From Desulfosarcina sp. BuS5 (lineage in GTDB: Bacteria; Desulfobacterota; Desulfobacteria; Desulfobacterales; BuS5): a stretch of 64,000 nucleotides of DNA. The position numbers and the translations under genes are program-made. Within the stretch, counting starts at the first letter, position 1. Each line of letters starts with the position of its first letter. This document shows, in pieces, positions 27,825 to 63,272 of the stretch. Under the pieces are notes generated by a model, which was not told where the DNA came from, did no database searches, and saw only the letters and a program-made list of their open reading frames with translations. Location of the stretch: assembly GCF_028752835.1 (NCBI RefSeq), contig NZ_CP087952.1:1097041-1161040 (forward strand), given 5' to 3'.

Positions 27825-28199
27825 TTATCAGGATCAGCCAGGTTATAGCGAAATACTTTACATATCTTATAACAACCAGTGTTATAAGATAGCTTTTTCC
27901 GTTTGCGCTGTATCTCCGCTATTTCAGTCTTGACACTTATTATACTTTTTGACAATATAAAGGATTAAATTAAAATCGTGTAGAATTAAAGATAAAATCA
28001 TGCCAATGTATTAAACCTGATGATACAATATAGATTTTCAGATAATTACCCGATTTTAAAATTTGGTTACAAGGCCGGAGGGGGGGGGGTTCAAAATCTT
28101 GAACCCCTACTACGATGACCGATAACGCAGTGAAAGTATTTATGTGGAAATCTATAATACAATTTACGAATTAAAACCGTAAATTCCGGAGTAATAAAA
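27825..28199. other. Gene-free region upstream of ileS
   Basis: Holds a CTTATAACA/TGTTATAAG hairpin near 27870-27892 and the TATAG-family repeat at 28029-28156. A minus-strand frame of about 56 codons starting TTG near 27955 exists, but nothing supports it as a gene. Confidence 0.5.
28029..28156. repeat. TATAG-family hairpin repeat, copy 1
   Basis: Ends TATAGATTTTCA and TGGAAATCTATA pair completely with one G-T wobble. Inside are the family segments AAGGCCGGAG and GACCGATAACGCAGTGAAA around a variable hairpin, here GGGGTTCAA/TTGAACCCC (28086-28107). Lies directly upstream of ileS. Confidence 0.75.
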
Positions 28200-37163: not shown

Positions 37164-37267
37164 TATAGATTGTCAGATATAAATTTCACAAGGCCAGAGG
37201 GAGGAAGGCGTATTGTAATACTCCGACGACCGATAACGCAGTGAAATTATTTATGTGACAATCTATA
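37164..37267. repeat. TATAG-family hairpin repeat, copy 2
   Basis: Ends TATAGATTGTCA / TGACAATCTATA pair perfectly. Compared with copy 1 one base differs in both arms (T-A to G-C), a compensatory change. The variable core is GTATTGTAATAC, and the conserved CGATAACGCAGTGAAATTA follows. A separate 10-bp hairpin (GCTGGGAAGC/GCTTCCCAGC) lies just downstream at 37275-37309. Confidence 0.78.
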
Positions 37268-37375: not shown

Positions 37376-38305
37376 ATGCGAAAGCAAATCTCTATCTTTG
37401 CATTAACCAACACCGGTTCATCGGTTAAACATATTACTGTTTCCAGAACTTTTATCTTTTGCATTTCTTTTTTTATTCTTGTCGGCCTGGTGTCATTCGG
37501 TTTTGTCCTTTATGATTACGTAACTGCAAAGCAAATAGCAGTTAACGCGCACAACTTTGAGAGAAAAAATTCCGTTCAGCAGGACGAAATATTCGAGCAG
37601 AGAAAGCAGATACAGAATTTAGCGGATAAGATTGAAGCATTCAAGACGAAACTGACATCATTAAAAAAGTTTGAAAAAAAGATACGGGTTATTGCAAATA
37701 TTGAAAAATCTGATGATCTGAACGATTTTTCAGGAGTCGGCGGATCTAATCCGGAGATCCTTGACACACGGATACAGGTTACAAAAAAACATAACAGTTT
37801 GATCAGGGAAATGCATGAACAGTTAGAACAATGCGATCGTGCAGCGGAAGCCCAAAAAAATGATTTTGAGACTCTTGCTAAAAAGCTGGCGCACCAGCAG
37901 AATATCCTGGCATCCACACCTGCCATACGCCCCATTTCCAAAGGATGGATCTCATCCAAGTTCGGATACCGGGTATCTCCCTTTACAGGACGTAAAGAAT
38001 TCCATAAAGGGATTGATTTTGCGGCACGAAAGGGCGATCCGATTTTCGCAACCGCTGATGGTCTTGTAACATTTTCAGGAATTAAAGGAGGGCTTGGCAA
38101 AGCAGTTGTTATTGACCACGGACATGGGATGTCGACACGTTATGGGCATGCATGTAAACTTTTGAAAAAACGGGGAGACCGGGTAAAAAAAGGCGATATT
38201 ATCGCTCTTGTCGGCAGTACAGGACGCAGTACCGGATCTCATGTTCATTATGAAGTTAGGCTTAATGGTATAGCTGTAAACCCTGACAAATTCATACTAA
38301 ACTAA
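37376..38305 (+). CDS. M23-family peptidoglycan endopeptidase, membrane-anchored
   Basis: 309 residues. One membrane anchor (RTFIFCISFFILVGLVSFGF), then a coiled coil of about 100 residues, then an M23 (LytM) domain. Zinc ligands are present: His/Asp in FHKGIDFAARKGDPI and HVHYEV, plus HGHGMSTRYGHA. The complete ligand set suggests an active enzyme that cuts peptide cross-links. The ATG at 37376 has no clear ribosome-binding site. The gene lies upstream of secA but is separated from it by a hairpin element. Confidence 0.9.
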   Translation: MRKQISIFALTNTGSSVKHITVSRTFIFCISFFILVGLVSFGFVLYDYVTAKQIAVNAHNFERKNSVQQDEIFEQRKQIQNLADKIEAFKTKLTSLKKFEKKIRVIANIEKSDDLNDFSGVGGSNPEILDTRIQVTKKHNSLIREMHEQLEQCDRAAEAQKNDFETLAKKLAHQQNILASTPAIRPISKGWISSKFGYRVSPFTGRKEFHKGIDFAARKGDPIFATADGLVTFSGIKGGLGKAVVIDHGHGMSTRYGHACKLLKKRGDRVKKGDIIALVGSTGRSTGSHVHYEVRLNGIAVNPDKFILN

Positions 38306-38311
38306 TTTTTA

Positions 38312-38469
38312 GGGAACTGGAAGGGAATAATCTACGCATATCGTGCAGAATTTTTGTTCGTCTTCAAGGCGTGGTAACAGTTGCATAGTGAACTATACAA
38401 CTGTTACCGCAACGTAGAAGACGGACAAAAGGGCAAGCAGGATGCGTAGATTATTTTCTGTAAGTTCCC
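38312..38469. mobile_element. Long-hairpin miniature element, copy 1 (158 bp)
   Basis: GGGAACT...AGTTCCC ends; the two halves are complementary almost end to end, through AATAATCTACGCAT/ATGCGTAGATTATT, GTTCGTCTTC/GAAGACGGAC and GGTAACAGTTG/CAACTGTTACC. TTA flanks both ends, a possible 3-bp target duplication. Non-coding. Copy 2 is at 56127-56291 in opposite orientation. Confidence 0.88.
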
Positions 38470-38576
38470 TTATTACACCTCAAAAAAATCGACAATTCAT
38501 TTCTGAATAATTCCGCTTAAAGAACAGGGAAGTTATTTCATCCTCGTTCCTAACCACCAATGAGGTCTTTTAATAG

Positions 38577-41105
38577 ATGATCGGCCAGTTTTTAACAAAA
38601 ATATTCGGCAGTAAAAATGAACGTGAATTGAAAATACTTCAACCGGCTGTTCAGTTGATAAATTCTTTGGAACCGGAAATGCGTGCGCTGAGTGATGACG
38701 AACTCATGGCAAAAACAGGGTACTTCAAAGAACAGAACGAGAATGGGGCAACACTTGGAGATATCCTGCCGGAAGTCTTTGCCACAGTGCGGGAAGCTTC
38801 CAGGCGAGTACTCAAGATGAGGCATTTTGACGTTCAACTTATCGGGGGAATGGTACTTAATTCCGGCAATATCGCTGAAATGAAAACAGGAGAAGGGAAA
38901 ACCCTGGCTGCCACTCTTCCCGCATACCTTAACGCGTTAACAGGTAAAGGCGTACATATTGTTACAGTCAATGATTATCTTGCAAGGCGCGATACGGAAT
39001 GGATGGGTCAACTATATAATTTTCTCGGGCTTTCCGTGGGCAGCATACTGCACGAAATGGATGATGCCGAGAGGAAGGAAGCATACGCGTCAGATATAAC
39101 TTACGGGACCAACAATGAATTCGGGTTTGATTATTTGCGGGATAATATGAAGTTTGATATTGAGTCGCTTGTTCAGCCTATGCTAAACTTTGCCATAGTT
39201 GACGAGGTTGACAGTATATTGATAGATGAGGCCAGAACACCTTTGATTATATCGGGTGCGGCAGAAAAATCGACGGATCTCTATTATCAGATCAATAGAA
39301 TAATACCGCGTCTTAAAAGGGATATTGATTACGCGATAGACGAAAAAGCCAGAAGCTCCATGCTGACCGACGAAGGCGTCGTAAATTTGGAAAAAATTTT
39401 TAAGGTCAACAACCTTTACGACCCCAATCATATTGAACTTCTCCACCATATTAACCAGGGTTTGAAAGCTCATTCTCTTTTTAAACGCGATGTCGATTAT
39501 ATAGTTAAAGAGGGTGAAGTTATAATTGTAGATGAATTCACAGGCAGACTTATGCCCGGGCGCAGATACAGTGAGGGACTGCATCAGGCCCTGGAAGCGA
39601 AAGAGGGTGTAAAAATAGAGAATGAGAATCAGACCCTTGCCACGATTACCTTTCAAAACTATTTCAGGATGTATGACAAACTATCCGGAATGACCGGAAC
39701 TGCGGATACCGAAGCCGGTGAGTTTAAAAAAATATATGACCTGGACGTTGTCGTAATTCCGACTCACCAGGAAATGATAAGAAATGATTATCCGGATCAG
39801 ATCTATAAAACCAGGAAAGAAAAATATAATGCCGCTATGGACGAGATTGTCAAACTCCATAAAAAAGGGCAGCCCGTGCTGGTCGGCACTGTTTCAATAG
39901 ATGTGTCCGAAGATTTTTCGGAAAAACTGAAAAAAAGGGGGATAAAGCATACTGTCCTTAATGCAAAAAATCATGAAAAAGAGGCTGAAATAATCAGCAT
40001 GGCAGGGCAGAAAGGTGCAGTAACTATTTCAACAAACATGGCGGGACGCGGGACTGACATTGTTCTTGGTGAAGGAGTCGCCGATCTGGGCGGATTGCAT
40101 ATTATCGGGACGGAAAGGCATGAAAGCAGGCGGATAGACAACCAGCTAAGAGGAAGATCGGGCAGGCAGGGCGACCTTGGTTCCTCACGATTCTACCTCT
40201 CCCTCGAAGATGATCTGCTTAGAATTTTCGGCGGCGATAGAATAACCAAGGTTATGGAAAAACTTGGAATGGAAGAAGGGGAACCTATTGAGCACAATCT
40301 TATCAGCAGGGCAATAGAGAATGCCCAGGCAAAGGTTGAAGGCCGCAATTTTGATATAAGAAAGCAGTTAATAGAATACGATGATGTCATGAATCAGCAA
40401 AGGGAGGTAATCTACAAGCAGCGTCGTGAAGCTCTTGAAGGAAAAAATCTGAAAGACGCGATTAAGGATATGATATATGATCAATCAGAAATAATTGCCG
40501 GCAATTTTGCAGATAATAAAACCTTTTCCGAGGAATGGGATTGGGATGGCATTAAAAAAATGGTTCGTAAAAAGTTTCATTTTAATTTGAACGGTATAGA
40601 TGACGATACAATGGATGGTTTGACAATAGAGGGCCTGACAGAGTTGATATACGAATCATCCATGGGGATATATAAAATTCGTGAATCTATTATAGGTGAA
40701 GAAGATTTTAGAACTTTTGAACGGATTGTAATGCTTCAGACTGTTGATAAGTTATGGAAGGACCATCTCCTAAGCATGGATCATCTTAAAGAAGGTATCG
40801 GTCTCAGGGGTTATGCCCAGCAGGATCCTCTTATAATTTATAAAAAAGAAGGGTTTGAAATGTTCCGGGAGATGATATCAAGGGTCAAGGAAGAGATAGT
40901 CGGACTCTTGTTCAGAATCCGGATAGAGCAACCGGAGAGGATAGATGATCTGAAACGGCCAAAAGAACAGGATCTTGTCTTCTCCGGCGGAGATGGGAGT
41001 GAAACAAAAAAAATGCCTGTCAAGCGCGCTGAAAGAAAGATTAGCAGGAATGCGCCTTGTCCGTGTGGAAGCGGTAAAAAATATAAAAAATGCTGCGGAA
41101 AATAA
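38577..41105 (+). CDS. secA: Preprotein translocase ATPase SecA
   Basis: 842-residue motor that drives secretory proteins through SecYEG. DEAD-type ATPase with Walker A region [15 protein letters not shown], Walker [16 protein letters not shown], motor 2 ([28 protein letters not shown]), and the C-terminal zinc site [17 protein letters not shown], which in other bacteria binds SecB or phospholipid. Length and order are normal. Confidence 0.97.
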
Positions 41106-55836: not shown

Positions 55837-56079
55837 CTAATCTTCGTCTTCCGAGTGAGCCTGCTTGCCCGTCCCTTTAAGACCGATCAGGGTGGTGCTG
55901 CCACTTGACCAGTACTCGAGAATGCCTTCAGTTACCATTTTATTTACAAGATTTTTGACTGTTCTGGGTTTTTCATCCGGTATAAACTTGTAAAAATCTT
56001 TAAGATAAAACTTTGATTTTGCCTTTGATTTTTTTTTAAGATTTTCTACAATTGTTTTTTTTGCTGCTTCTTCATCCAT
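55837..56079 (-). CDS. dsrD: Dissimilatory sulfite reductase-associated protein DsrD
   Basis: 80-residue winged-helix protein starting MDEEAAKKTIVENLKKK, with FYLKDFYKFIPDEKPRTVKN and LEYWSSGSTTLIGLKG, the hallmark of DsrD (about 78 residues in Desulfovibrio). It is reported to stimulate sulfite reduction by DsrAB. The ATG at 56079 is preferred with AGAGGCG upstream; in-frame codons further upstream read into the inserted hairpin element. It is separated from dsrB by about 230 bases, most of it that element, an unusual gap for this operon. Confidence 0.95.
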   Translation of the reverse strand: MDEEAAKKTIVENLKKKSKAKSKFYLKDFYKFIPDEKPRTVKNLVNKMVTEGILEYWSSGSTTLIGLKGTGKQAHSEDED

Positions 56080-56126
56080 ATTTACGCCTCTTTTCTGGGT
56101 TAAGCCGGGAGCAATGCCCCGGCTTA

Positions 56127-56291
56127 GGGAACTTACCGAAAATAATCTATACGCATCCTGCTTGCCCTTTTGTCCGTCTTCTACGTTGCGGTAACAGTCG
56201 TATAGTCCACCACTATGCAACTGTTACCACGCCTTGAAGACGAACAAAAAATCTGCGCGATATGCGTATAGATTATTTCCTTCCAGTTCCC
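56127..56291. mobile_element. Long-hairpin miniature element, copy 2 (165 bp), inside dsr operon
   Basis: Inverted copy of 38312-38469. Arms of about 80 bases pair with few mismatches. TTA flanks both ends. Compared with copy 1 a TA pair is added in both arms (ATCTATACGCAT / ATGCGTATAGAT against ATCTACGCAT / ATGCGTAGAT), keeping the stem aligned. It lies between dsrB and dsrD. Confidence 0.9.
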
Positions 56292-56309
56292 TTATTAAAA
56301 AATTAAAAC

Positions 56310-57458
56310 CTAAAACTTAAAGTTAGAAGTTTGACGCCATGTATAGTATGCCGGATCCCTGAAATCATCTATCAGGTGATGTGTGAATTCGAGTTCACAT
56401 TTTTCAAAAAATCTTTCCCATCCGATTCTTTCAGCCCATTCTCCGAGGCGTTCATATTTGTTGGCATCTTTTGCATAGGCTTCTACTATACGTTTAATTG
56501 TAGCCGTCATTGTAGGCCAGCGCGGCTGTTCGTTGGGGATAAAGGCCACAACAACTTTTGAAAACTTCGGGTTGCTGATTCTGTTTGAGACCTTTCCACC
56601 AACCATGAGCACGATGCCGTCACCCACATCATCGGCCAGGGGCATTGAAGGACACATGGTGTAGCAGTTACCGCAGAACATGCAGCGTTCCTTGTTAACT
56701 GAAACACTATTTACCTTTGTTCCGTCTGCAAGCTCAATCTTGGCTGGTTTGACGGCTGCTGTGGGGCATGCGGCGATTGCAAGCGGAATTTCGCACATTT
56801 TGTCCAGGTATTCATGATCAAGCATAGGCGGTTTGCGGTGATAACCGAGAATAGCAATATCCGAACAGTGAACCGCGCCGCACATGTTAAGGCAGCAGGC
56901 CATGGAAACACGGAGATGCGCCGGCAACCTCATATCCTGGAAGTCGCTGAAAAGGACATCCATGGTAGCTTTAACCGTGCCGGATGCATCTGTGGCGGGT
57001 GTATGACAATGAATCCAGCCTTGAGTATGGATTATATTTGTTATGCCTGCGCCTGTGCCGCCGATGGGAAATTTTAAACTGCCCCCCGGAAATTTTCTGC
57101 TTGAAAGATCGTCTTTTAAAGGCTGGAGCTTATCCTTGCTGTCAACCATAAATTCGATATTATTTCTTGTTGTGAAACGTATATGTCCATCGCAGTGTTT
57201 GTCTGCGATTTCACAGATTTCACGGATGTGAGTGACACTCATGAGCCGGCATCCGCCCACTCGCACTGTATAAACCTCATCCCCTGTTTCCGAAACATGA
57301 ACAAGCACACCCGGTTCCAGTATTTCATGATACAGCCATTTACCCTTATTTTTTGCTATTACGGCAGGGTAAAATTCATCATATTTTCTAGGTCCGATGT
57401 CTGTTATCCTGTTTTCCATCGGTTTGTCAGGGTTATAACCTGATGATATAAAAGCCAT
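56310..57458 (-). CDS. dsrB: Dissimilatory sulfite reductase beta subunit
   Basis: 382-residue beta subunit of DsrAB, the siroheme enzyme reducing sulfite to a DsrC-bound trisulfide in the cytoplasm. Cluster cysteines fall at 151, 188, 189 and 193 ([20 protein letters not shown]), matching the characterised Desulfovibrio enzyme as I recall it. A ferredoxin domain follows ([18 protein letters not shown]). Start [13 protein letters not shown] is typical. It begins 11 bases after dsrA, so the pair is co-translated. Intact, no missing ligands. Confidence 0.97.
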
Positions 57459-63094: not shown

Positions 63095-63133
63095 CATCAT
63101 TTTCTCCTTATTTATTTTACTCAATTTTTTATA

Positions 63134-63272
63134 TATAGAATTTCAGATAATTACCCGATTTTAAAATTTGGCACAAGGATAAAGTGAAAAACATGAGGGA
63201 GGCGCACTGATGGTGCGTCGACCGAAGGTTTTGACCGATAACGCAAGGAAATTATTTATGTGGAAATCTATA
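63134..63272. repeat. TATAG-family hairpin repeat, copy 4
   Basis: 139 bp from TATAGAATTTCAG to TGGAAATCTATA. Core GGGAGGCGCACTGATGGTGC, then GTCGACCGAAGGTTTTGACC and GATAACGCA. The internal segment ATAATTACCCGATTTTAAAA is shared with copy 1. Lies between the YkgJ-family gene and tRNA-fMet. Confidence 0.78.

Follow-up and report, generated by a model that had tools for sequence, protein, structure and literature searches.

A MITE-like hairpin element between dsrB and dsrD in Desulfosarcina sp. BuS5 and the range of its folded core among bacteria

The 64,000-nucleotide stretch of Desulfosarcina sp. BuS5 DNA analysed here (the window) contains a dsr operon in which a long hairpin separates dsrB from dsrD, and this raises the question of whether the hairpin is a working part of the operon or an insertion. 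The hairpin (copy 2; 165 bp, 56127–56291, minus strand) occupies the gap between dsrB (56310–57458, minus strand) and dsrD (55837–56079, minus strand); Pfam searches identified the genes around it as those for DsrA and DsrB (NIR_SIR), DsrD and then a CbiA/GATase_3 protein (dsrN-like). A 158-bp relative (copy 1; 38312–38469, plus strand) lies between secA (38577–41105, Pfam) and an ORF at 37376–38305 that, judging from its sequence alone, presumably encodes a peptidase-like protein. Both copies were recognized by sequence, BLAST, RNA folding and model matches. They are oppositely oriented and carry direct TTA repeats at both ends, at 38309–38311 and 38470–38472 for copy 1 and at 56124–56126 and 56292–56294 for copy 2, where the 3-bp target site duplication reads TTA on the plus strand and TAA on the minus strand. 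Their predicted folding energies are −87.7 and −89.9 kcal/mol (z-scores of −13.75 and −13.59, respectively), and none of 200 shuffled sequences folded as well. Coordinates and folding thus agree with the preliminary description, which had reported two TTA-flanked hairpins in opposite orientation and a TA dinucleotide gained in both arms. The latter gain is indeed present in copy 2, which differs from the consensus of 17 close copies by a TA added in each arm (56148–56151, TATA where the family has TA, and 56267–56270) and by GTG added near the loop; the TA gain is absent from every other locus compared. This double TA is the lone matched two-arm change among the close copies. Sequence and alignments place the two arms of a conserved core loop of copy 2, AAGGCG and CAACGTA, at 56230–56235 and 56181–56187 of the minus strand, respectively.

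Comparison of the dsrB–dsrD spacers bears directly on the origin of copy 2. DsrD was present in 38 of the 40 genomes searched (BuS5 included), and spacers were taken from 30 loci (L260–L289), of which 27 were readable and L273, L278 and L285 were skipped. All 26 readable spacers other than that of BuS5 are 53–146 nt long, too short to hold the long element. The BuS5 spacer consists of TTTTTTAATAA, the element and TAAGCCGGGG; in both same-genus genomes, G001 (TTTTTTAAATAAGCCGGGG) and G002 (TTTTTAAATAAGCCGGAG), there is a clean empty site with a single TAA between dsrB and dsrD. Given these two empty sites, copy 2 is very probably a recent insertion, bounded by a 3-bp repeat, of a non-autonomous, MITE-like mobile element of ∼ 158 bp and not a part of the operon. 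The hairpin is absent from these two genomes, in line with the inserted element that the preliminary description had supposed.

The supposition that this element is present in multiple copies was borne out by a BLAST search of the BuS5 genome, which found it at 32 places (E ≤ 0.01). Most of these are whole; internal deletions were seen at 518358 and 3445872, three copies are split by an insert, and only end fragments remain at 1996847 and 1289539. Two whole copies (L005 and L011) sit inside another repeat, the uninterrupted form of which is found in the window (28028 and 63133), and TTA is duplicated at these insertions. Among the 162 elements from the loci then collected, 87 are flanked at both ends by TTA or TAA, with the two triplets identical in 78 of these 87 (P = 7 × 10−15 against one half), even though the end-finder, which required GG ends, favoured TTA and TAA but not equality of the two sides. 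Read in the orientation of the element, there were 45 TTA/TTA, 33 TAA/TAA and nine mixed cases; the other 75 elements, lacking such a triplet on one or both sides, reflect decay, truncation or misplaced ends. Near-identical copies in the BuS5 genome carry either triplet (15 with TTA and four with TAA) and, therefore, the triplet comes from the target. The length of the element is 157–160 bp in 93 of the 162 cases. Being short, non-coding and dispersed, with terminal inverted repeats and a target site duplication, the element is a MITE by anatomy; we infer its mobility from the repeats and the empty sites, because no mobilizing enzyme was found among the loci and genomes searched. Empty sites were read near the BuS5 genome only, and mobility of the Bifidobacterium elements described below is putative.

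The genome also contains a second, TA-flanked MITE with TATAGATT ends and a length of ∼ 104–140 bp, found in the window at 37164–37267, 28028–28156 and 63133–63272. Three hairpin copies (L017, L025/L027 and L026/L030) are interrupted by it in their loop region. In two of the loci with this nested form, 10 kb apart, the inner 104-bp inserts are identical, and the two elements seem to have spread as a unit.

The preliminary description had further proposed that copy 2 acts as an RNase III site, a partial terminator or a stability element that sets the expression of dsrD and dsrN against that of dsrAB. A host-selected RNA element of this kind (RNase III site, attenuator or stability element) would account for the great stability of the hairpin and for the fact that its constrained strand (see below) is the minus strand, that is, the sense strand of the dsr mRNA; the MITE hairpins of Neisseria, as presented in one review, are proposed targets of RNase III (PMC2229807). 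However, the element fits none of the 26 other readable spacers, two same-genus genomes have the empty site, and the copies in the BuS5 genome occur in both orientations relative to genes, 10 out of 25 being in the sense orientation to the upstream ORF (P = 0.42; counted by hand with a crude longest-ORF calling). With gene orientation unbiased, host mRNA function is not what constrains the element. Furthermore, paired positions of copy 2 carry three substitutions, of which two break pairs and none is compensated, and a scan for terminators came up empty on the dsr strand, its match within the element (56254–56268) being on the opposite strand. The regulatory role has thus lost its footing, and we regard a host-selected dsr RNA element as very improbable. 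Instead, copy 2 very probably inserted recently at the TAA beside a short hairpin of the spacer, duplicating those 3 bp, with the dsr operon as a tolerated landing site. The dsr transcript would now carry a very stable hairpin before dsrD, and RNase III cutting may follow as a side effect; such cutting, or polarity, is possible in Desulfosarcina sp. BuS5.

The short GC-rich hairpin that adjoins copy 2 (56100–56125, minus strand; delimited by folding and spacer comparison) has its base in the TTA at 56124–56126. In contrast to the long element, it is a recurring part of the operon: a predicted fold with a paired run of at least seven bases on the 5′ side was found in 27 of the 27 readable dsrB–dsrD spacers. 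In 23 of these, no more than two of 200 shuffled sequences folded as well (mean z-score of −4.1 for the spacers); P was 0.02 for the BuS5 spacer with the element removed and 0.025–0.045 for L270, L284 and L287 in the same shuffle test. The short hairpin thus looks, from these comparisons, like a conserved operon feature and, if structure tunes dsrAB against dsrD, it would be the candidate; no paper on a dsrB–dsrD hairpin was found in the literature searched. For the dsr question, a false lead is thereby removed and a better one gained.

The distribution of the long element was followed with searches of increasing reach. BLAST matches were found in 11 of 58 genomes, namely BuS5 and 10 of its 57 relatives. 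A first covariance model, built on 16 hand-picked copies, matched at least 90 of 242 genomes in the order of the host (64 of 131 genera; up to 14 candidates scored per genome) and at least 30 of 395 genomes drawn from the phylum (up to eight candidates scored in each). A search of a public genome set with a core pattern, for which we estimate about two chance matches, returned at least 118 stretches; those with names come from Gammaproteobacteria, Desulfobacterota, Nitrosomonas, Acidobacteria, Myxococcota, Campylobacterota, Saprospiraceae and four Bifidobacterium species, and Colwellia is also among the named genomes with the element. Many of these genomes are MAGs, in which binning errors can blur the host range; the records from Bifidobacterium and Colwellia are of named strains. 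A second covariance model (R2), built on loci of BuS5 and 17 named genomes and applied to up to 150 candidates per genome, matched 24 of 25 genomes, including six of the seven named genomes outside its training set. The one miss is a Clostridia MAG with no R2 matches, whose locus (L170) looks like a chance match to the pattern and was rejected as a family member. Training-independent R2 counts were 16 in B. vansinderenii, five in B. oedipodis, 18 in C. demingiae, 27 in Acidobacteria, 12 in Campylobacterota and three in Staskawiczbacteria; Ca. Venteria ishoeyi had at least 150 matches and a Nitrosomonas MAG had 140. Matches to the opposite strand of the same copies were weak (E-values of 0.007 and 0.1 in 64 kb) and, therefore, added little to these counts.

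At its gathering threshold, Rfam 15 reported only two tRNAs in the whole window, and ten element loci searched at E ≤ 1 gave nothing within the elements; the side matches outside them were to an adjoining tRNA and osmY (L172) and to three microRNA models (L193). The element being abundant and having no Rfam match, many genomes probably carry it unannotated. The core pattern had no matches among viral contigs, a BLAST search with one copy gave no match among plasmids and phages, and no description of the family was found in the literature searched, which included few subscription papers.

Several variants were seen at individual loci. In Bifidobacterium (L173, L198, L203 and L229), the core is kept and the outermost 15–25 bp of the arms vary between copies without loss of pairing. 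On visual inspection, an arm sometimes extends into the end of a neighbouring gene, and such hairpins may grow by copying the flank. In a family from G027 (L036 and L046), a complement of its partner arm takes the place of the AAGGCG arm, and the mismatched loop is lost. A stretch with the same core and other ends (TAGTGTCCGTCCATAAAT) lies at L021:2690–2871, within 1.2 kb of a family copy, and G001 (for example, contigs C35 and C79) has a sister repeat with GGGACGYGGAAAAAAATAAT ends and ∼ 180 bp between the flanking triplets.

What has been conserved across this range is the fold. In the alignment from the host's order, which omits L036 and L046, the two that lack the mismatched core loop, both sides have changed in 22 of 44 pairs and 94.6% of the cells pair, compared with 36–48% when the arms are slid against each other. 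Within the order, two loops of mismatched bases are found repeatedly; one sets AAGGCG against CAACGYA and the other lies nearer the ends. In the cross-phylum alignment (34 hand-chosen loci, of which two were missed by the script, leaving 32 aligned and 31 distinct), both sides have changed in 23 of 29 pairs and in 195 of 897 cells, and 90.3% of the cells pair versus 41–50% when slid. Because the core loops were fixed in the pattern used to collect this set, their conservation in it is imposed; the anchor pairs TTC/GAA, G/C and GYG/CRC are likewise fixed and say little, their 118 of 121 pairings being a weak check on a pattern that itself holds complementary anchors, whereas the outer, inner and apical pairs were free.

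Close copies tell a different story. The 17 closest (15 from BuS5 and two from the genus) show 29 substitutions at paired sites, none compensated and 15 pair-breaking, with a few sites recurring in two copies so that not all of these cells are separate events. In six other sets with 54 copies (four from single genomes and two pooled from related MAGs) there were 223 single and 10 double changes, i.e. 10 of 233 were compensated. These figures discriminate between the alternatives left by the preliminary description, that structure is retained or that the arms are converted to match: the covariation upholds retention of structure over the long run, and conversion as a general process is rejected by the near absence of compensated changes among close copies, the double TA of copy 2 being the exception. 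Arm-to-arm conversion, by template switching in the palindrome, would maintain the match between the arms even if no folded strand were selected, and could explain that double TA, the G027 arm that is the complement of its partner, and the outermost Bifidobacterium arms that vary yet pair in the loci read. It is at odds with the counts just given and with the persistence of the mismatched loops across families (the cross-phylum part of which is partly imposed by the pattern), and gives no reason for the excess of G.T over A.C described next; we consider it unlikely.

Counts of G.T pairs and A.C mismatches bear on which strand is constrained. Between 26 families (< 85% identity; the model was searched against 61 loci and gave 61 forward matches), G.T outnumbers A.C by 111 to 18 and is commoner in 25 of the 26, the exception being L040; this is a count on a model-fitted alignment in which inherited pairs are counted many times. 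With the core loops masked, the better fold belongs to the constrained strand in 25 of 28 families (< 75% identity) and to the other strand in two (L039 and L064), and one is level; the sets overlap and the families are related, so that P values from sign tests are guides only. A rigid pair count without model fitting, which suffers from bulges, gave a weaker result, with 58 G.T versus 28 A.C (18 families above, seven below and four tied) and off-register controls of 82:70, 84:56 and 79:58. Thus, one strand seems to be constrained, as judged from these pair counts and folds. In the 17 close copies, by contrast, a hand count gave 10 G.T versus 13 A.C, and the six other sets gave 76 versus 46; the contrast between families and close copies has P values of 3 × 10−5 for the BuS5 set and 9 × 10−7 for the pooled sets, and points to selection on copies that move, exerted through one strand. 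Resident copies drift without compensation, and the constraint appears to lie in the lineage that keeps moving. Selection of this kind would make the mode of movement testable. GC skew, computed for 40 sampled stretches, was so irregular that the origin and terminus could not be located for an analysis of replication-strand bias.

We consider the chances about evenly balanced that the element moves with one strand folded as a single strand, either ssDNA or RNA, and recognized at its internal loops by a putative enzyme. Since moving would require this folded strand, only source copies would be constrained; the enzyme would recognize it at the conserved internal loops, and integration would proceed via a cut staggered by 3 bp, without preference for either strand. 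A different mechanism would make the element a conventional MITE that derives from an IS5/PIF-Harbinger-type DDE insertion sequence, its structure being long terminal repeats bound as duplex DNA. Insertion sequences of this type make TWA duplications and have ends starting with GG; the duplications found here, TTA and TAA in both senses, fit the 3-bp TWA pattern, as do the GG-starting ends (GG having been required by the end-finder) and the palindromic architecture. However, PF13340 (DUF4096, the IS5 subfamily searched for) has matches in only three of 21 element-bearing genomes and not in that of BuS5. TWA and GG ends were absent from 30 PF01609 loci in 12 genomes, which hold a minority of the PF01609 matches outside BuS5, and from 17 further BuS5 stretches around other PF01609 matches. 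A scan of the loci for end pairs around ORFs gave 26, none with a transposase-like product in the first 60 residues (by eye). In addition, binding as a duplex would not explain an excess of G.T over A.C on one strand. Usual MITE families have common ends and a variable interior, and here the reverse is seen, with a shared core and varying ends. We view the IS5/PIF-Harbinger explanation as a serious contender that nonetheless falls short of an even chance.

Likewise, no autonomous partner was found in the BuS5 genome by the element ends (up to three mismatches; pairs judged by eye), and the scan of the loci revealed no elements with a gene in the loop, only the nested MITE. One pair of GGGAGCTGG ends near a PF01609 match, with no duplication, was discarded when it proved to lie inside a reading frame. 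The mobilizer may be a transposase that shares few end bases with the element, one of another family or one that was only transiently present. The same searches brought up two other insertion sequences in the BuS5 genome: a high-copy one with CAGTAGTGTCCGG ends and at least 40 matches, which has a 390-aa PF01609 frame and, as read in four copies (for example, L100, L108, L110 and L112), duplications of 9 bp, and one of 1512 bp with CTCAAGTTTTCGAAAA ends and 6-bp duplications (L397–L399).

The strand-specific hairpin also recalls REPINs. If the element were REPIN-like, a Y1 (RAYT) transposase would move it by acting on hairpins of ssDNA, in agreement with the Y1_Tnp matches in 21 of the 24 genomes tested, with 30 matches in BuS5. 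Yet the three genomes without such a match, G051, G062 and B. simiarum, all have elements (G051 and G062 are incomplete MAGs, at 86% and 80%), and, of 30 Y1 loci, only four lie within 1.5 kb of an element. Elements derived from IS200/IS605 (PATE) make no target duplication and have a fixed strand relative to the target, which is not the outcome seen here, with duplications of both senses (45 TTA/TTA and 33 TAA/TAA). We therefore find movement by a RAYT improbable.

Taken together, we tentatively suggest, as something less than likely, a widespread class of bacterial mobile elements of ∼ 158 bp, with a covarying core that holds conserved mismatched loops, movement through a folded strand, a putative core-recognizing enzyme and a 3-bp cut at TWA, in which sequence and ends turn over and the fold persists across phyla. 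MITEs do not usually keep a fold while their sequence and ends change. The element resembles the Tourist-type MITEs of IS5/PIF-Harbinger in its TWA duplication and GG-starting ends, but differs from them in that no partner transposase was found and in its conserved interior, variable ends and strand-specific constraint. REPINs and their RAYTs, as outlined in PMC3116915, are similar in being dispersed hairpins with a proposed movement as folded DNA and compensatory changes; the element differs in its TTA/TAA duplications, its single hairpin of ∼ 158 bp and the lack of any RAYT linkage in our searches. The bcr1 repeats of the Bacillus cereus group, going by the accounts in PMC3446304 and PMC6542083, are likewise mobile repeats likened to MITEs, with many copies that often lie in UTRs or within operons; their restriction to the B. 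cereus group and their TTTAT motifs set them apart by description. Abundant MITEs are reported for Thiomargarita (PMC4853749). Correia/NEMIS, ERIC, RUP and YPAL, as reviewed in PMC2229807, are bacterial MITEs of less than 200 bp that encode no protein, have inverted repeats and target duplications, and give long stem-loop transcripts, often from intergenic positions. The BuS5 element shares their size, non-coding nature, inverted repeats, duplications, predicted stem-loop transcripts and frequent intergenic position. That review assigns those families to named host groups, with TA at the ends of most, whereas the BuS5 element has a TTA/TAA duplication and one folded core that occurs in distant groups with differing ends. 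Thus, it departs from the MITE families as these accounts portray them (PMC2229807; PMC3116915; PMC3446304; PMC6542083) in having an interior fold that is common to distant groups and ends that vary.
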